Assembly: GCA_938743325.2 (NCBI GenBank)
Contig: OW568880.1
Span: 649,275 to 713,274, forward strand
Direction: 5' to 3'
DNA: 64,000 nucleotides
Source of the DNA: Pycnococcus provasolii
Taxonomy: Eukaryota > Chlorophyta > Pseudoscourfieldiophyceae > Pseudoscourfieldiales > Pycnococcaceae
Shown here: one piece after another, positions 1 to 56,370 of the stretch
Numbering within the stretch: the first letter of the stretch is position 1
How the letters are laid out: the number at the start of each line of letters is the position of its first letter
The notes under the pieces: generated by a model
Database searches by the model: none
What the model saw: the letters and a program-made list of their open reading frames with translations, nothing else
What the model was told of the DNA's origin: nothing
Made by a program: the position numbers and the translations under genes

Positions 1-2471
1 GGAATTGGCGATCTTGGCTCGTCTAGAATGACGATGACGCTGCTACTCGCGTTTGGATTCTCGTCCTCATTAGCAGCACCACCCTCCTTCTTCTTCTCGT
101 CGCTGTGGCCCACACGGCCAAGTCCGGGAACACGAGATAAAATGCCTACGGCTAACAGCCTCCACCATCGTCGCCTCGCCAGGTTGCTTGAGTTCTGTGC
201 ATCGTCACTCTTCTCCATAAACTCAAACGCATTCATCTCCGCTTCTCCGCGCGCCGCCGTTGTCTCCTGTTTCGCCTTGCGCTCCGCGACAGATCTACGC
301 CGAATCGTCTGAACCTTCCGTGCAGCATCGTCGAGCTCCTGCTCCTTCTTCACGACATCGTCGGACACTTCCTGCGCATCATGTTCCAACTTCGAGATTC
401 TCCAAGCCCCCTGAATCTTCCGTGCAGCAGCATCCTGTACTGCCGAATCATCTAGCGTGTGGTATTCCCTGTCAACATGTTTGACATCCTTTTCAGCACG
501 ACTTTCCTCGCTTTGTGAGTTGGCACCTACACACATGCATTCGGTGAACACGTGCCACCACTCCTTCTTCCTCTTCTTTTCATTCCTTCTCTCATACCTT
601 TCAGGTGACCAATGCTCAAATGCAATAGGCGAAGGCACCGGTGACAATGTTGGCGCTGGTGATGACGTGTGCACCTCCTGGACCAGCTTTGTGTTCTGCT
701 CGCGTATCCGCTTGATCTCATCATGTCTCACCTTGCGATCTGAGACATATCTTCGCCGAATCGCCTGAACTTTCTGTGCAGCTTTATCCAACTCGTCCAA
801 TTCACTCGTAAGCTTCGTAATCTCGATCTCTATTCTCTGTTGCTCCTCAAATGAAATAGGCGAAGGCACCGGTGACAATGTTGGCGCTGGTGATGACGTG
901 TGCACCTCCTGGACCAGCTTTGTGTTCTGCTCGCGTATCCTCTTGATCTCATCATGTCTCACCTTGCGATCTGAGACATATCTTCGCCGAATCGCCTGAA
1001 CTTTCTGTGCAGCTTTATCCAACTCGTCCAATTCACTCGTAAGCTTCGTAATCTCGATCTCTATTCTCTGTTGCTCCTGCACTATCTGAGCGGCTTCGAG
1101 TTCTGCTTCGCGATCCACAACATCTTCTTTCTCCATGGAAATCCGTTCCTCTCGAGGCATTGACAATCTTCGGTGAAGTGCTTCAGGGACATGCTTTGAT
1201 GCCGGCGTGCGGTCATCATATACAAACTGACTACTAGCTTGCTGCCACTGCGGCGAGTTGTCCATGGATGGTGGTGGTGATGGTAGGTGCTGCGGCAGCG
1301 CCGGTGGTGGCGACGGCTGCGGCGATTCAATCTGCGCGGCGATAGCGTCGACGGCAACATGAGATTCTTGAGCAAATGAAGCTTCGAATTCTTCATCTTT
1401 GCTGGTGCCAGGACTGCGTGCTGCAGAGTTGCCGGATTTAGTTGGCGGAGTCGTAGTTGTGCGAGCAGCACTGGTCGAAGTCTTCCTTGAAAGCGCTACT
1501 CCATTTCCAAGCCCGTTGCGCACGACTTTCTGGTTTGTCGCAGCCCCTCCTCCTCGCGCTCCTGCTCCGACACGAGGAGACTTCGCTTTCGTTGTTGCCG
1601 TGGCAGCTGTTGCTGTGGTCGCCACCACTCTTCGCGATGGAGTCGTTATCGCTTTGGGTGTACTGCTGTTACCAGGACTGCGTGCTGCAGAGTTGCCGGG
1701 TTTAGTTGGCGGAGTCGTAGTTGTGCGAGCAACACCAGCACCAGCACCAGCACCAGCACCTGTGGTCGAAGTCTTCCTTGAAAGCGCTACTCCATTTCCA
1801 AGTCCGTTGCGCACGACTTTCTGGTTTGTCGCAGCCCCTCCTCCTCGCGCTCCTGCTCCGACACGAGGAGACTTCGCCTTCGTTGTTGCCGTGGCAGCTG
1901 TTGCTGTGGTCGCCACCACTCTTAGCGATGGAGTCTTTTTCGCTTTGGGTGTATTGCTGTTACCAGGACTGCGTGCTGCAGAGTTGCCGGGTTTAGTTGG
2001 CGGAGCACCTGTGGTCGAAGTCTTCCTTGAAAGCGCTACTCCATTTCCAAGTCCGTTGCGCACGACTTTCTGGTTTGTCGCAGCCCCTCCTCCTCGCGCT
2101 CCTGCTCCGACACGAGGAGACTTCGCTTTCGTTGTGGCCGTGGCAGCTGTTGCTGTGGTCGCCACCACTCTTGGTGAGCTCAGTGGTGATTTCGCGTTTT
2201 GTGCCGGAGCCGGAGGCTTAACGGCCGGCGAGTCGCGCAGCGACTTCTGCCGTTCTAGTTGCACATGCGTAGGTTCTTGCACTTTTCCACCACCACCTCC
2301 CCCCTTTCCCACCAGAGGTTGTGTGCGCGGCCGAGCTTGCGGCCACGCCGAGAACGACGCGTCCGGCATGCCCAACACCAAGAGGAGAGTGACAAGCGAA
2401 CAAGAAGGCACGGACGGGACAGGGACGAGGGGGAGGGGGTCCAGCAGCCATGTGCAAGGACGGTTCCCCAT
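1..2471 (-). CDS. 3'-truncated repeat protein with IQ-like motifs (runs off the left edge)
   Basis: A frame with no stop runs on the minus strand from an ATG at 2471 to base 1, so about 823 residues are visible and the C-terminus is missing. The first 35 residues are proline- and leucine-rich. They may instead be a pyrimidine-rich leader, with the true start at the ATG at 2369 (MPDASFSAWP). Next comes a basic Ala/Thr/Pro/Ser/Lys region made of three near-identical blocks of 88 to 97 residues, then a Pro/Gln-rich stretch. After that is a charged coiled-coil region with a 77-residue tandem duplication. Each copy holds an IQ-like motif (KVQAIRRRYVSDRK), and later IQ-like segments are RKIQGAWRIS and RKVQTIRRRS, which suggests calmodulin binding. 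The duplicated codons keep the frame. I do not recognise the family; a cytoskeletal or scaffold role is only a guess. Confidence 0.7.
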   Translation of the reverse strand, partial: MGNRPCTWLLDPLPLVPVPSVPSCSLVTLLLVLGMPDASFSAWPQARPRTQPLVGKGGGGGGKVQEPTHVQLERQKSLRDSPAVKPPAPAQNAKSPLSSPRVVATTATAATATTKAKSPRVGAGARGGGAATNQKVVRNGLGNGVALSRKTSTTGAPPTKPGNSAARSPGNSNTPKAKKTPSLRVVATTATAATATTKAKSPRVGAGARGGGAATNQKVVRNGLGNGVALSRKTSTTGAGAGAGAGVARTTTTPPTKPGNSAARSPGNSSTPKAITTPSRRVVATTATAATATTKAKSPRVGAGARGGGAATNQKVVRNGLGNGVALSRKTSTSAARTTTTPPTKSGNSAARSPGTSKDEEFEASFAQESHVAVDAIAAQIESPQPSPPPALPQHLPSPPPSMDNSPQWQQASSQFVYDDRTPASKHVPEALHRRLSMPREERISMEKEDVVDREAELEAAQIVQEQQRIEIEITKLTSELDELDKAAQKVQAIRRRYVSDRKVRHDEIKRIREQNTKLVQEVHTSSPAPTLSPVPSPISFEEQQRIEIEITKLTSELDELDKAAQKVQAIRRRYVSDRKVRHDEIKRIREQNTKLVQEVHTSSPAPTLSPVPSPIAFEHWSPERYERRNEKKRKKEWWHVFTECMCVGANSQSEESRAEKDVKHVDREYHTLDDSAVQDAAARKIQGAWRISKLEHDAQEVSDDVVKKEQELDDAARKVQTIRRRSVAERKAKQETTAARGEAEMNAFEFMEKSDDAQNSSNLARRRWWRLLAVGILSRVPGLGRVGHSDEKKKEGGAANEDENPNASSSVIVILDEPRSPI
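625..1078. repeat. 231-bp in-frame tandem duplication (two copies)
   Basis: Two almost identical copies follow each other with a 231-bp offset (ATAGGCGAAGGCACCGG occurs at 625 and again at 856). Only a handful of bases differ. On the minus strand this duplicates 77 residues containing an IQ-like motif and a coiled-coil stretch. Confidence 0.9.
1407..2172. repeat. Three-copy in-frame array with 264- and 291-bp periods
   Basis: Units begin at about 1407, 1671 and 1962 and are nearly identical. The middle unit carries extra GCTGGT (minus strand) triplet-pair copies that lengthen an Ala-Gly run. All lengths are multiples of three, so the minus-strand frame stays open through the array. Confidence 0.85.
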
Positions 2472-3936
2472 CAGCAGGCCGAACAATGGGTTTTACCCGA
2501 CCTCGAACTTCCAGATGACAATGACAAACAGGGCCTGAAAAAACGAGAAGTACGTGACGTCAACGACAATGCTTCCCACCAATGTGATCGAGGCAAAACA
2601 ACATTATTATTTGCCTGATTTGCGCTTTGAAAAAAAAATAATAAAATATCCCATAAAGGCCCATTCCTCCATTCTTTTGGCTTCTTCGTTTTGTTGATTC
2701 GCAGCCCTAGGATGGATGGTACCGGGTAGAAGTACCGGGTAGGAAGTTAAGGTAGGAAGGCCTAAGGTAGGAACCCCCCGTCTGCTTGTGGTTGGAAAAT
2801 TTCCTCCCGGACCTTTGCCAACCTCAACCTCAACCTCAGGCCAACATCTGGCGGCCGGCCTAGGTACAGTAGTACTACTGTCCTCCAGCGGTCCCCCCCC
2901 ATCTACTCTAGCTAGAAGAGAGAGGCTCAACTCCTCCCCTCCTGATGAGGCTCAAGGACTTGCAAGAGGAGGGGAAGGAGGACCATTTGAAGGCAGAAAG
3001 GCCGCGGAGGAAGGGAGGCGCGGACTGGCGGAGGGAGGAGAGGAGGAGATGCGCTGAGGAGCCGCGAGGAGCCGCGAGGAGGGAGGAGGGGTCGGCGAGG
3101 AGGGGCCAGAAAGCCACGGCCACTGGCCACTGGAGTTGGAGGACCGCCACAAAAAAGCGTCCCCCCCCCCGAAGCGTACGGGTCCCCTTCAGGGAAGGAG
3201 CCGCCCCACCCCTGACCCCAGGCTCCTAAAGGTAGCTAGGGTGGGTTTCCAGAAGCCTTTCCGTTTCCCGCTTCTCTTTTCGGTTGGCTGGTTGGGGAAG
3301 AAGGTTCCCTCACCGCCTGCTTTGCATTGTCTGGGGTGGGGCCCCCTGTTCTCCTTTTTGTTTTGTAGCCGCCGCCTCCCCGCACCTTTGGAACTTCCCC
3401 CACCCGGCACCCGGGCGCGGCGGCCTGCTCTGCTCTACGGCAGCTGGTTCGTCTCCCCCCCCCCCTCCCTGTCCTCCCCTCCGCTTCATCCATCCCGATC
3501 ATTCTTCCCTTTTAGTTGAGGTATGTCAAATGCTTGCTTGTGCTTGTGCTTGTGGTGCTTGTGCTTGTGCTTGTGCTTGTGCTTGTGCTTGTGCTTGTGG
3601 TGGCTCACTTCTCCTCTTCTCCTCTTGGAGGACTTGTGCTGCTTTTATTTTCTTGTTTTGTTTTTTGGTGTTGGTTTGGATCTCTCCCTTGAGATGTTAG
3701 CAGCTTTTTTGTTGACATTCATTCATTGGGAGAGGAGAATTCTTTTTGTCTTTTTTTGAGATGGTGTTTGGGTTTTTGGTCAACCAAACGACAAACTTTG
3801 TCAACGCGCACTCGCACACCACGTTTACTTTTTTTTTTTTTCACAACGGCAGATTTCACTAACATCTTTCTTTTTTCACACAACAACATCTTTCAGAAAC
3901 TTCTTTTCTTTTTAACAACAAGCAAACAAACAAATC
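2472..3936. other. Intergenic region between two divergent genes
   Basis: No coding region is supported here. The region serves as 5' flank for the minus-strand gene ending at 2471 and for HSP70 at 3937. It holds imprecise GGTAGGAAGG-type repeats (2710-2780), long C and G runs, and T-rich tracts just before HSP70. A GAAACTTC pair (3896-3903) fits a minimal heat-shock-element half pair, but it is too close to the ATG and too short to call. Confidence 0.6.
3531..3599. repeat. TGCTTG hexamer microsatellite
   Basis: An almost perfect TGCTTG/TGCTTGTG array of about 70 bp lies 340 bp upstream of the HSP70 start codon. Confidence 0.9.
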
Positions 3937-5889
3937 ATGAGCGGAAAAGGACCCGCGATCGGTATCGACCTCGGTACCACGTACTCGTGCGTGGGCGTGT
4001 GGCAGCACGACCGCGTGGAGATCATCGCCAACGACCAGGGCAACCGCACGACGCCGTCGTACGTCGCCTTCACGGACAGCGAGCGTCTTATCGGAGATGC
4101 CGCGAAGAACCAGGTTGCGATGAACCCGACGAACACCGTCTTCGACGCCAAGCGTCTCATCGGACGCAAGTTCCAGGACCCCACCGTGCAGAGCGACATC
4201 AAGCTGTGGCCGTACACCGTTACCTCCGGTGACGGAGACAAGCCGATGATCCAGGTGGATTACAAGGGCGAGAAGAAGATCTTCTCCTCGGAGGAGATCT
4301 CCTCCATGATTCTCATCAAGATGAAGGAGACTGCCGAAGCCTTCCTCGGCAAGGAGGTGAAGGATGCCGTCGTCACCGTCCCCGCGTACTTCAACGACTC
4401 CCAGCGCCAGGCAACCAAGGATGCCGGTGCCATCTCCGGACTCAACGTTCTTCGCATCATCAACGAGCCCACCGCCGCCGCCATCGCCTACGGACTTGAC
4501 AAGAAGTCCACGTCGACGGCTGAGCGCAACGTGCTCATCTTCGACCTCGGCGGAGGCACGTTCGACGTGTCGCTGCTGACGATCGAGGAGGGCATCTTCG
4601 AGGTGAAGTCCACCGCCGGAGACACGCACTTGGGTGGCGAGGATTTCGACAACCGCCTCGTCAACCACTTCCAGCAGGAGTTCAAGCGCAAGTTCAAGAA
4701 GGACATCACGTCGAACCCGCGTGCCCTGCGCCGCCTGCGCACGGCGTGCGAGCGCGCGAAGCGCACGCTCTCGTCCACCGCCCAGACGTCCATCGAGATT
4801 GACTCGCTGTACGAGGGCATCGACTTCTACAGCTCCATCACGCGCGCGCGCTTCGAGGAGCTCAACATGGACATGTTCCGCAAGTGCATGGAGCCCGTGG
4901 AGAAGTGCATGCGCGACGCCAAGATGGACAAGTCGCAGGTGCACGAGGTTGTGCTCGTCGGCGGATCGACGCGTATCCCCAAGGTGCAGCAGCTGCTGCA
5001 GGACTTCTTCAACGGCAAGGAGCTGTGCAAGAGCATCAACCCCGACGAGGCTGTCGCGTACGGTGCCGCCGTGCAGGCTGCCATTCTCAGCGGAGAGGGC
5101 AGCGAGAAGGTGCAGGACCTGCTCCTGCTCGACGTCACGCCGCTCAGCCTTGGCCTCGAGACGGCCGGAGGCGTGATGACCAGCCTCATCCCGCGCAACA
5201 CCACCATCCCCACGAAGAAGGAGCAGGTGTTCTCGACGTACTCCGACAACCAGCCCGGTGTGCTCATCCAGGTGTACGAGGGCGAGCGCAGCCGCACGCG
5301 CGACAACAACCTGCTCGGCAAGTTCGAGCTCAGCGGAATTCCCCCGGCGCCGCGCGGCGTGCCGCAGATCTCCGTGTGCTTCGACATTGACGCAAACGGC
5401 ATCCTCAACGTGTCCGCCGAGGACAAGACGACGGGCAACAAGAACAAGATCACCATCACGAACGACAAGGGCCGCCTGTCGAAGGAGGACATCGAGCGCA
5501 TGGTGCAGGAGGCTGAGAAGTACAAGGCGGAGGATGAGGAGCACAGCAAGAAGATTGAGGCGAAGAACAACCTCGAGAACTACGCGTACAACATGCGCAA
5601 CACGATCAGCGACAGCAAGATGACGCTCGACCCCGCCGACAAGGAGACGATCGAGAAGGCTGTCAACGAGACGATCGAGTGGCTCGACGGCAACCAGCTC
5701 GCGGAGATTGACGAGTTCAATGACAAGCTCAAGGAGCTCGAGGGCGTCTGCAGCCCGATCATCTCCAAGGCGTACCAGGGCGGAGGCGCGCCTGGTGCCG
5801 CGCCCGACATGGGCGGAGGCATGCCCGACATGGGCGGTGCGAGCGCCGAGGGTGGCGCCGGTGGCCCGAAGATTGAGGAGGTTGATTAA
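3937..5889 (+). CDS. HSP70: Cytosolic heat shock protein 70
   Basis: A 650-residue ATP-dependent chaperone of the cytosolic HSP70 family, full length. The three family signatures are present: [13 protein letters not shown] near residue 9, [18 protein letters not shown] near 200, and [13 protein letters not shown] near 337. The substrate-binding domain follows and the C-terminus has GGMPDMGG repeats ending in EEVD, the tail that binds TPR co-chaperones such as Hop. There is no signal or transit peptide and no KDEL, so it acts in cytosol and nucleus. The ATG follows an A-rich leader. Codons strongly favour G/C in third position, as expected for high expression. A long antisense frame across the gene is a by-product of this bias. 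The HSP70 gene converges on the minus-strand gene at 6178. Confidence 0.98.
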
Positions 5890-6136
5890 ATAACAAAACA
5901 AGCCTCTTGAAATCACACCCAATATTTTTTAAAGAAAGTAATCAGTTGATTTTTTCTTTTCCTCTCTTCAAAGATATATATATGTATAAAAGGAACCTAC
6001 TCACTTTTCCGACTTTTCCACAAAAGCGCCCTGATAGAGTGATCCAACCTTCTAAATCACCTGCGCCATGAACAAAAACGCGTAGTGTATGGCACCTGTG
6101 AATGAGCTGAATGGTGTGAAAGGATGGATGACCGTT

Positions 6137-53015: not shown

Positions 53016-53228
53016 TAGGAAACGCTTATCCTCTTTGCCTCTGGCGGCTTCATGGCCGTGCTGAGCGGTTCGGGCACGGGCGGCGGCAAGTCAAGCAGGC
53101 TTTCGAGCGCCTTGCACGCCCACTGCGTTACCGTCGCGGACATGGCGGAAGGCGGAACGGTGCTGAAAATGGGTTGAGGCGAAAGATGCGTTACAGCACA
53201 GGTCTGGGGTCCCACCTCTGGGGTCCCT

Positions 53229-53436
53229 TGTCGAGATTATACCTTATATGCCTTGTGGGGAACCGTTGTTGAGGACTCGGGATCCCAGAGGGAAAGGGGA
53301 CGCAATAGGTCGATTGGTCAAGATAGGCATCCTGACCAACCGACCTAAACCCCCCCCTAGGGATAAGGGGGCGCGGCCCCTGGTTGTCTAAGTTGTAAGA
53401 CCACTCTTTTCTTTTCTTTTCTACTTATTCTCTTCA
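53229..53436 (+). repeat. 5' LTR
   Basis: 208 bp, TGTCGAGATTATACC to TTATTCTCTTCA, with a CT-rich end. It is identical to 54738-54945 as read. Confidence 0.95.
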
Positions 53437-53449
53437 GGTTATGAGCCTC
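53437..53449 (+). promoter_or_regulatory. Primer-binding site matching the tRNA-iMet anticodon loop
   Basis: GGTTATGAGCC follows the LTR directly. It is complementary to GGCUCAUAACC, the anticodon stem-loop of initiator tRNA-Met, not to a tRNA 3' end. Half-tRNA priming of this kind is established for Drosophila copia and yeast Ty5. Confidence 0.7.
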
Positions 53450-53986
53450 AAGTTGTGAAACAGCTACGCTACCTTAAGTCAGCCTACGAAACTTCACAGT
53501 CTTTGAGTACACTTACTTGGCCGCCGAATACACTTTACAGCTCACAAATATATTGACTACAGAAAAAACGCGAAAAGAAACTGCGTAGTGAAAAACAGCT
53601 TTCGACCTATTTTCCCGTTGTGGAAGGTGGTCAGACCACTTCGAGAAACCTTATCCTGGCAAGATACGGTTATCCAAACTGAACATCTTGAAGTGCTGAA
53701 CATAAAAAAGTTATTCTGCGCAGTTTCCAACCGTTTTTGACTTGGTCAACCTTGATACTATTTTCAGCCGTCTACTTACGCCTCGCAAGACGCCATACTT
53801 GAACTGGCGGCGCCGACGGGGACTTTTCTACGAATTCGGGGTTCACACATCGCGAGTTTAGGGGTTTGGATTCTCTACTTTTGGAAAAAACACAAACCCG
53901 ATTCCTCGAGCTCTCCTCATTAGGGTTCCCAGAAACATAACCCTAGTTAGCAACTTCTGGATCACCTTTGGACAAGTTGTGACGTC

Positions 53987-54445
53987 ATGCCTGAACTGGA
54001 CAACTCAAAACCACCGCTATTTGTACCGTCTAAACGCTCTTACAACGATTTCGTTCTGGCTTGGCGCGGTCACTCGCGAAAGCGAAACTACTCGCAGTTG
54101 TTGGAGTGGGCAGAAAATCCGGACAACGCACCGGAAGCACTCACTCAACAGCAGCAGACGTGGAACTCACGATTTTTCTCTGACTTGGTTGACTCCCTGT
54201 ATAACGGAGAAACTGATGACGCTGCCACCGCAGCTCTTGCAGCCATGGATGCAGCGGCCGACGACGGAATGCAGCTTTGGACAGCTCTGAAGCGCGAAAT
54301 CGACATCACGCTGCCCTCAGCACGATCTCACGCAGAAGACCAGCTCAAGAACAAGACTAAACAAAAGCATGACGAAGCCTCTGAGGCAAGACATCCACAA
54401 TTACCTCGTGCAAATGATTCTGCACGGTTAAACGGCCTCCAGTGA
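53987..54445 (+). CDS. Gag-like protein of the LTR element
   Basis: A 152-residue frame, the only one of size inside the element, starting at MPELDNSKPPLF. It has a helical, Trp-containing composition (SYNDFVLAWRGHSRKRNY; LLEWAENPDN) as in the capsid part of copia-group Gag, and ends with a basic/acidic tail. No CCHC zinc knuckle and no protease motif follow. The AT-rich 290 bp between its stop and the polypurine tract is non-coding. The gag identity is inferred mainly from position between primer site and 3' LTR. Confidence 0.55.
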   Translation: MPELDNSKPPLFVPSKRSYNDFVLAWRGHSRKRNYSQLLEWAENPDNAPEALTQQQQTWNSRFFSDLVDSLYNGETDDAATAALAAMDAAADDGMQLWTALKREIDITLPSARSHAEDQLKNKTKQKHDEASEARHPQLPRANDSARLNGLQ

Positions 54446-54727
54446 ACCGACTGGTTGAGGTAACAGGCCACCTCACAATAACACAGACATCTCAGAAGAT
54501 AAGGTCAATACACATACCAAAAGAAACAAAAATCAAAACATCACAAAATCAAATACAAATCGAAACATCACGAAAACGAATACAAATTCAAAACATTACA
54601 AAAACGAATAAAAAATTAATCAACCATACAAGACCTTGACAAACCAAATAAGAAGAACGAAGAAATGAAGATACGAACTAAACAACTAAACAACGCTACT
54701 TGCCAGCTTTCATACCAGGCATAGCAG

Positions 54728-54737
54728 CGAGGGGAAG
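54728..54737 (+). promoter_or_regulatory. Polypurine tract
   Basis: GCGAGGGGAAG lies directly before the 3' LTR, the expected place for plus-strand primer formation. Confidence 0.75.
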
Positions 54738-54945
54738 TGTCGAGATTATACCTTATATGCCTTGTGGGGAACCGTTGTTGAGGACTCGGGATCCCAGAGG
54801 GAAAGGGGACGCAATAGGTCGATTGGTCAAGATAGGCATCCTGACCAACCGACCTAAACCCCCCCCTAGGGATAAGGGGGCGCGGCCCCTGGTTGTCTAA
54901 GTTGTAAGACCACTCTTTTCTTTTCTTTTCTACTTATTCTCTTCA
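54738..54945 (+). repeat. 3' LTR
   Basis: It is identical to the 5' LTR at 53229-53436, and is followed by the second TCCCT target duplication at 54946-54950. It ends 105 bp before the ARP6 start codon. Confidence 0.95.
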
Positions 54946-55050
54946 TCCCTCCTGCTGCCTGGACCCAAACCCCGAAAGTTCTGCCCAAAAGCTTTTACTT
55001 TTTCGCACCCCCAGCCGCCACGGCATCCTCCGCCCATTTCCGAGCAGCCC

Positions 55051-56370
55051 ATGGCGGAACTCGCGCTCACAACGTCGGCTCTAGTCGTGGACAACGGCGG
55101 AGGTGCCGTCAAACACGCGCTCGCCACAGCCAAGAGCCCGGACGTCACACTCAACTGCACCGCGCGTCCTTCCAAAGATCGCACCGCCACGCAGCTCGTG
55201 GGAAACGACGTGCGCAGCTCGACGCACGTCGCTGGACTCCTAACATCGCGACCGTTCGAGCGCGGGTACCTCGTGCGCTGGGATGTCGAATCAGAAGTGT
55301 GGGCGTCGAGTGTGCTGAAAGGCAGATCGCCAAAAGATCACGTGCTCTTGCTCACAGAGCCGCCACTGAACTTTCCCGAGCTGTCAGCTCAGCAGGCGGA
55401 GGTTGTGTTCGAGCACTACGGATTTCCTGGATACCGCTCCGTGCCCAGCGCAGCTCTTAGCATGCACGGTTCCCTCTGCAGCACATCCTCCGGAAGCGGC
55501 GTGCCATCGCCCACACTCGAAGCCGCACGAGCGTGTGGCGCTGGCATCGTCGTCGACAGCGGCTTTTCGTACACGCACAGCCTTCCCGTGTTTCAGCGGC
55601 GTGTCGTGGGACAGGCTGTGAAGCGCCTCGACGCGGGAGGCAAGGTTCTCACAAACTACCTCAAGGAGCTCGTGTCTTACCGCAGCGTGAATGTGTCTGA
55701 TATGTTCCACGTCGTTGACGCGTGCAAGGAGGAGGTGTGTCGCGTTTGCAAGGAAGGCGCGGTGTCCGCGCTGCAAGCTTGTGCCCAGAAGGGTGGCGGC
55801 AGCCAGGTTGTGCAGTACGTCCTTCCCGACGGCGTCGACCGCAAGGTTGGTCGTGTGAAAGCACAAGACAGCGAAGACAGTCACGTCAACGCTGTCGCGA
55901 AAGAAGGTGAGCAGCCGTCTCCCGCAGAGATGAAACGGCGGCGGCAAGAGGAGGAGGCGACCATCGAGCTGCGCAGCGAGCCGTTCATGGTACCTGAGGT
56001 TCTATTTCGTCCCATGGATATTGGCCTGAACCAGCTCGGCGTAGCTGAGCTCGTAGCAAGCAGCGTGGCGTCACTCCCTTTGGAAATGCGTGAGGCATGT
56101 CTATCCAACGTGGTTGTGTGTGGAGGAAATGCTGCCATCTCAGGTTTTAAGGAACGTCTGGAGCTGGAGCTCGCGCCATTTGTACCTTCGGGCCAGGAGT
56201 GCCACGTGCGTCTTGCGCCACCCGATCCCGTCACAAGTGCATGGCACGGCGGCGCTGCGATGGCGCGTGACAAGGGCACATTCTACCCCACAATCATCAC
56301 GAAGCGACTGTACGAGGAGGAGGGAAGTATGCGCGTGCTAGAGCGCATGAAAGCGGCGTCGTCGTGGTGA
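55051..56370 (+). CDS. ARP6: Actin-related protein ARP6
   Basis: A 439-residue actin-fold protein of the ARP6 group, a subunit of the SWR1/SRCAP complex that deposits histone H2A.Z. The nucleotide-fold segments are LVVDNGGGAVKHAL near residue 12 and GIVVDSGFSYTHSLPVF near 170. ARP6-typical stretches are FERGYLVRWDVESEVW near 70, TEPPLNF near 110, GGKVLTNYLKELVSYRSV near 205 and IGLNQLGVAELVASSVASLP near 330. NVVVCGGNAAISGFKERLE closes the fold. It is longer than animal ARP6 (about 396) because of a charged insert near 270-310 (EMKRRRQEEE). The start codon lies 105 bp downstream of the retrotransposon, so the insertion replaced or displaced its upstream promoter. Confidence 0.92.
   Translation: MAELALTTSALVVDNGGGAVKHALATAKSPDVTLNCTARPSKDRTATQLVGNDVRSSTHVAGLLTSRPFERGYLVRWDVESEVWASSVLKGRSPKDHVLLLTEPPLNFPELSAQQAEVVFEHYGFPGYRSVPSAALSMHGSLCSTSSGSGVPSPTLEAARACGAGIVVDSGFSYTHSLPVFQRRVVGQAVKRLDAGGKVLTNYLKELVSYRSVNVSDMFHVVDACKEEVCRVCKEGAVSALQACAQKGGGSQVVQYVLPDGVDRKVGRVKAQDSEDSHVNAVAKEGEQPSPAEMKRRRQEEEATIELRSEPFMVPEVLFRPMDIGLNQLGVAELVASSVASLPLEMREACLSNVVVCGGNAAISGFKERLELELAPFVPSGQECHVRLAPPDPVTSAWHGGAAMARDKGTFYPTIITKRLYEEEGSMRVLERMKAASSW

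Follow-up and report, generated by a model that had tools for sequence, protein, structure and literature searches.

The last 64 kb of contig C20, in an assembly of 32.3 Mb and 46 contigs, form the stretch of DNA analysed here (64,000 nucleotides, hereafter the window). It contains a short element with two long terminal repeats (LTRs) and a single short open reading frame (ORF), and the question it raises is whether this is a gag-only design moved in trans, as the original prediction held, or what is left of a longer element. We think it likely, with good confidence, that the element derives by deletion from a full-length copia family of a green alga and inserted recently, as judged by comparing its sequence with those of its relatives.

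The window element and its family

The element is bounded by direct repeats of 208 bp at 53229–53436 and 54738–54945, which are 100% identical, have TG...CA ends and constitute its 5′ and 3′ LTRs. It is flanked by TCCCT on both sides, at 53224–53228 before and 54946–54950 after, forming a 5-bp target duplication; these two sites carry no strand assignment, and all of the internal features and LTRs lie on the forward strand. GGTTATGAGCC follows the 5′ LTR directly from 53437, and a purine run, GAGGGGAAG (54729–54737), abuts the 3′ LTR as the polypurine tract (PPT). The identical LTRs, the duplication, the PPT and GGTTATGAGCC had been described in the original prediction, and inspection of the sequence bears them out. 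An untranslated leader (53437–53986) precedes an ORF of 152 codons from ATG (53987–54445), for which a Pfam search returned no match, even at E 10. The 3′ untranslated part contains AT-rich imperfect repeats at a spacing of 27–28 bp (54519–54614).

A search of the 32.3-Mb assembly with the LTR gave at least 52 matches. Among the matches listed are ten two-LTR elements and three one-LTR fragments (on contigs C12, C35 and C7), the fragments still with inner sequence; others listed are weak partial matches on C29, C5 and C26, and some are to the hairpin region alone. The window element is more than a chance arrangement, the same LTR being found in ten two-LTR elements of which nine have a perfect 5-bp target duplication. 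The first 106 nt of the leader are present in all ten, with 104 of the 106 columns invariant. The LTRs fall into two length classes, one of about 208 bp and the other of about 139 bp. Those of the longer class include a 45-bp hairpin (53306–53350 and 54815–54859 in the window; RNA fold of 53300–53365, z −4.9), a dispersed palindrome also seen on C2, C3, C4, C16, C22, C29 and C31 and missing from the 139-bp type.

One of the ten elements, L032 on C13, is 5,648 bp in length with an unbroken gag-pol frame of 1,469 codons, and is the sole full-length copy among the two-LTR elements found. It shares its LTRs, leader, primer site and PPT with the window element. Its polyprotein matches Pfam domains in the order gag_pre-integrase, rve, SH3_retrovirus, RVT_2, which is the order of copia elements; the first two matches are weak and under the curated cut-off (gag_pre-integrs, E 0.002; rve, E 0.001), while SH3_retrovirus scores 38 bits and RVT_2 204 bits (2.5e-60). 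The integrase therefore precedes an RVT_2-type reverse transcriptase (RT) in the C13 relative, and the window copy itself has neither RT nor integrase. The search for copies and a complete relative that the original prediction had proposed was in this way productive, and its assignment of the window copy to the copia group as a non-autonomous member agrees with the outcome: the C13 element carries the same LTR in copia order, and the window copy lacks pol. The gypsy-type integrase order, named beforehand as the finding that would tell against this assignment, did not appear in the LTR-bearing relative, and for this family it is ruled out by the domain order of the C13 copy. No match was obtained for the RT part of the family in a PDB search, and no relative for an RT piece in a scan of viral_contigs. 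The protease region of pol reads IVDNASPY both in L032 and in a second element, L036; copia protease bears D(S/T)G at this stretch.

Across the ten LTR pairs, 1,874 bases were aligned, and the only differences are a substitution in the C13 pair and an indel in the C14 pair. Between elements, the larger blocks shared with the C13 copy are 95.6–99.8% identical. Because the LTR pairs are near-identical and identity between elements is lower, the insertions are recent and their source copies had already diverged. The description of the window element as very young is upheld by these LTR pairs and by the perfect 5-bp duplications of nine of the ten elements, with no clock applied. TG...CA LTRs are found along with the duplication in those nine; the C13 copy lacks both at its 3′ side, where its LTR ends in G rather than A and there is no target duplication, as if that end were rearranged. 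The C13 copy may thus be rearranged itself, or may not be the parent.

The primer site and its candidate primer

The sequence that follows the 5′ LTR extends to 14 bases, GGTTATGAGCCTCA (53437–53450), a putative primer-binding site that we take to be complementary to the anticodon arm of tRNA-Met(CAU) and that is common to other LTR families of the assembly. Its complement, GGCTCATAACC, is found at 24 sites in the assembly, 11 of them in the window element's family (family A). The longer TGAGGCTCATAACC is matched at 22 of the 24 sites, divided equally between family A (11) and other repeats (11); by our calculation, chance would give about 0.2. The 11 sites outside family A were grouped by eye, from the fetched flanks, into families B (4), C (2), D (4) and E (1). 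An LTR pair lies directly beside the primer site in B and C (L109 and L108, respectively; the start of the first repeat of L109 falls at the edge of the fetched stretch), and none was found for D or E within the 6.5 kb fetched, one copy of each.

Two further observations bear on how the site would be used. TGG does not occur directly after the LTR of the window element, and complementarity between the LTR and the first 30 bases of the leader extends over no more than 6 nt, too short for Tf1-like self-priming, which we reject. Together with the distribution of the site, this favours a functional primer site of 14 bases, used for neither 3′-end (TGG) priming nor self-priming, and half-tRNA priming of the family is plausible.

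It is nevertheless conceivable, though unlikely, that another primer is used and that the match to tRNA-Met arises by coincidence or shared ancestry. The families that carry the site are not all independent, since the LTRs of B and C match at 82% over 73 bases and their Gags show some similarity, and one D copy (L070) has the family A leader beside a D-type left side. In B and C the site overlaps the gag start (ATGAGCCTC), so that coding constraint could help to conserve it, and the searches described below did not find a tRNA-Met gene with the matching arm. Against this reading stand the 22 genome sites. The 14 bases are found beside the LTRs of B and C, although a comparison at E 0.1 of the LTR, A's leader and the B and C interiors gave no match between family A and either of these; in family A they are non-coding leader. 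The 6-nt self-complementarity and the lack of TGG likewise tell against another primer.

If half a tRNA-Met is the primer, the 14-base site of families A, B and C predicts an anticodon arm UGAGG-CUCAUAA-CC, with A at position 29. The prediction of the primer RNA would then be precise, a tRNA with UGAGGCUCAUAACC. Eukaryotic initiator tRNAs have three G–C pairs, with G at position 29. The shared TGA would place A at this position, where initiators have G. This underlies a bolder and, in our view, doubtful reading in which an elongator or atypical tRNA-Met is the primer; the A at position 29 would also set the family apart from the Osser lineage and the genus Hemivirus.

The assembly was searched for such a tRNA in several ways. 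GGGCTCATAACCC has 0 sites in the assembly, and ARAGORN calls no tRNA at the 13 GGCTCATAACC sites outside family A. The 31 sites of TGAGGCTCATA include 22 at the same places, and the other nine are not tRNAs by ARAGORN or Rfam; no TGAGGCTCATA site fetched resembles the 5′ half of a tRNA gene. Patterns for the elongator and initiator 5′ halves each gave 0 sites in the assembly; for the elongator pattern, as for the TGAGGCTCATA sites, this outcome tells against the bolder reading of the primer. Of the 12 sites with the initiator T-arm string GGATCGAAACC none is a tRNA by ARAGORN or Rfam. A plant initiator tRNA query found no candidates, which by itself shows nothing. The Rfam tRNA search gave at least 27 matches (63 of 587 candidates scored), 24 of them on two organelle contigs and three nuclear. 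Two of the three nuclear genes were fetched, for tRNA-Tyr (L082) and tRNA-Trp (L083), and both are split by introns near the anticodon, of 42 and 64 bases according to ARAGORN; in the Rfam alignments the inserts measure 61 and 68. The tRNA-Met gene may be split, permuted or unassembled in this assembly. Permuted tRNA genes are described from other prasinophytes in the accessible part of PMC3978253. The prediction of the primer RNA concerns a green alga in which both nuclear tRNA genes examined are intron-split.

The algal host assumed in the original prediction is borne out by petA, which lies on contig C46 (80,243 bp). The best match to a solved structure is chain 7qrm_C, followed by 1q90_A, presumably the spinach and Chlamydomonas proteins. 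Contig C45 (24,277 bp) carries tRNA genes. C46 is likely to be the plastid and C45 the mitochondrial genome, and the host a green alga.

Priming of this kind has precedents. In the accessible text of PMC1181622, half-tRNA priming defines the hemiviruses (Ty5, Osser, 1731 and copia), whose primer site pairs with the tRNA-Met anticodon arm and whose cDNA starts at nucleotide 40. The Volvox carteri Osser virus is tabulated as an algal Hemivirus in the part of PMC3820453 available, and the corresponding part of PMC6317226 records a 1/2 tRNA-Met primer site for Osser, Bryco and part of Gymco-II. Family A resembles the Osser lineage, and the genus Hemivirus of the Pseudoviridae (Osser, Ty5, copia), in its copia order and in a putative primer site that would be complementary to the tRNA-Met arm; it shares with Volvox carteri Osser a green algal host. 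Because of the Osser precedent, an algal copia element with a half-tRNA site is expected rather than new, and the novelty claimed for half-tRNA priming in an alga does not stand, such priming being in print for the green algal Osser copia in the accessible portions of these three papers (PMC6317226, PMC1181622, PMC3820453). Within the accessible literature on copia elements primed by half-tRNAs, in algae or elsewhere, which excludes most subscription papers, no title or opening of an abstract listed names elements of this host. One paper that mentions Pycnococcus provasolii along with genome and retrotransposon deals, by its title, with chloroplast genomes.

Deletion junctions and the origin of the window copy

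In length the window element falls 3,931 bp short of the C13 element. The two are 99.8% identical over the first 1,148 bases and 99.5% over the last ∼577, and the blocks join at a 9-bp repeat, CATGACGAA (54368–54376), which is present at both break ends; the window copy skips from reference base ∼1149 to ∼5070 across it. The ORF is in frame as Gag up to this repeat. Its first 130 codons (53987–54376) are those of the family Gag, the last of them inside the junction repeat and the first 123 residues equal to the C13 Gag. Its last 22 residues (54377–54445) represent the end of pol in another frame, with the family's own pol stop, TAA, at 54429–54431. We conclude that the "short gag-like ORF" is a deletion product. 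The ORF of the original prediction does exist; it is a truncated Gag with an out-of-frame tail, and not a Gag gene.

Nine of the ten two-LTR elements, the window's included, are internal-deletion derivatives, in which the ends are kept and the middle is lost. The window copy has the LTRs, primer site and PPT of the C13 copy and is collinear with it save for the missing middle, with one junction. Block alignment to the C13 element revealed nine different junctions in the nine derivatives. The break pairs, in C13 coordinates, are 1149/5070 (window), 761/4857, 667/4115, 445/4926, 685/4691, 1061/1998, 588/4599, 888/4526 and 315/4734. Overlaps are present in five of the eight junctions printed (9, 3, 2, 1 and ∼4 bases) and are not clear in the other three; the ninth junction, that of L039, contains foreign sequence. 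With the gag ATG at reference base 760, gag codons past the start are kept in three derivatives only, the window copy, L036 and L038.

The window copy is thus best read as a recently inserted deletion product of a copia family of hemivirus-like type, and was probably mobilised by a complete relative elsewhere in the genome. The simplest account, we infer from the sequences, would be a jump of RT between two CATGACGAA repeats, after which a full-length copy would have supplied the proteins for integration. RNA of the full-length copy, or of one very similar, would enter a particle together with its Gag and RT, and a fragment of tRNA-Met would probably prime synthesis at GGTTATGAGCCTCA. During minus-strand synthesis RT would jump from the downstream to the upstream CATGACGAA, skipping 3.9 kb; strand transfers would restore two identical LTRs, and the integrase of the family would insert the short cDNA, producing the 5-bp duplication. 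The truncated Gag would be a by-product of where the jump landed. If the jump takes place in the particle, after packaging, the derivative need encode nothing and would need no packaging signal of its own.

The choice between an RT jump and DNA repair in the parent copy as the deletion step is one that we infer only from the position of the breaks and their overlaps. That the middle was lost from chromosomal DNA through replication slippage or microhomology-mediated repair, whether in the parent before transposition or in place later, seems to us quite improbable. Overlaps of 0–9 bp are equally typical of end-joining repair, and with one assembly an earlier full-length state of these insertions is conceivable. 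However, all nine derivatives have their breaks between two intact, near-identical LTRs, and each retains a target duplication of its own, whereas random deletions in place should hit LTRs and flanks too; three truncated single-LTR fragments do exist.

A jump of RT remains the account we favour. Internal-deletion derivatives are familiar from the IAP and ETn types in mice and from copia deletion copies. The elements described here resemble these in that LTRs, primer site and PPT are kept, the middle is lost and the proteins come from a full-length relative; they differ in that there are nine different junctions, with no derivative seen to have multiplied as a lineage. Overall, the element looks like a product of common retrotransposon behaviour and not like a dedicated gag-only design.

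The extended claim, that the primer is half of a tRNA-Met other than the usual initiator and that RT jumps so readily that one-off deletions account for most new insertions, is doubtful. Deletion products are shown for nine of ten family A copies, and are suggested by eye for the short copies of B and C. The latter seem to join the gag start to an RNase H-like end, again as read by eye, for which Pfam gave no match. Of the two C copies fetched, the second diverges from the first ∼440 bases into the interior. A different copia family in this genome presents the opposite picture, with 12 RT-bearing copies of near-equal RVT_2 score, seven with a frame of 1,363 codons and one with a frame of 1,433 codons, a count from an RT search that is blind to RT-deleted copies.

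The Gag part of the C13 copy gave no match in a Pfam search, and profile comparison of the family A Gag with those of B and C gave nothing significant, so that the label "Gag" comes from position at the start of the polyprotein. Structure prediction for the first 230 residues has a mean pLDDT of 45.6. The profile search of the gag ORF advised in the original prediction likewise yielded no Pfam match.

The likeness to the TR-GAG elements of plants lies in shortness, two LTRs, the lack of pol and, probably, mobilisation by a relative. It ends at Gag, which is truncated in the window copy and is not common to the copies. According to the accessible part of PMC8704663, TR-GAG elements are able to transpose and retain a complete GAG frame, of 562 aa in the copy mobilised in Arabidopsis. 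That the window element is a non-autonomous design of this type, kept for making Gag and supplied with pol in trans, is very improbable: it does retain the ATG and 130 Gag codons, the short copies of families B and C (L109, L108) likewise open with a gag start, and the gag frame of ∼250 codons in the C copy matches Retrotrans_gag above the cut-off and the copia-type Retrotran_gag_2 just under it, but the window copy carries no intact GAG frame as its sole coding sequence, its N-terminal Gag segment was cut by a one-off deletion whose junction recurs in none of the other eight derivatives, and in six of the nine no gag codon follows the start.

A simpler story than a gag-only design mobilised in trans is that of a young copia family in which most of the two-LTR insertions that survive arose by deletions found once each. 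We regard the swarm of one-off deletions as the most interesting part of these findings. With near-identical LTR pairs and distinct junctions, it offers a record, left by natural insertions, of the points at which a copia RT may jump.

Inserts in other derivatives and neighbours of the window element

Several derivatives contain sequence from outside the family. L033 (C31:32400–40800) harbours a nested element of about 5.1 kb (a 5,134-bp insert, element bases 990–6123) with identical terminal repeats of 374 bp, a likely 5-bp duplication, AGATG, and longest closed frames of 177 codons on the same strand and 326 codons on the other. Foreign stretches are present in the three derivatives with the 139-bp LTR: 313 bp in L037 (C20), 677 bp in L038 (C28) and 1,394 bp in L039 (C1). 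The inserts of L037 and L038 share a stretch of 189 bp in opposite orientations, which occurs at nine places in the genome, these two counted. For the other 488 bp of the L038 insert and most of the L039 insert, no second place in the genome was found; the L039 insert includes an antisense piece of another copia pol.

On one side of the window element is an open frame of 483 codons that matched nothing in Pfam, and on the other, on the same strand, an actin-related gene (PF00022, 3e-62). The first ATG in the frame of this gene (MAELALTT) comes 105 bases after the element, which is thus some 100 bp upstream of the gene (54945–55051). Its LTR could have an effect on the promoter of the actin-related gene.
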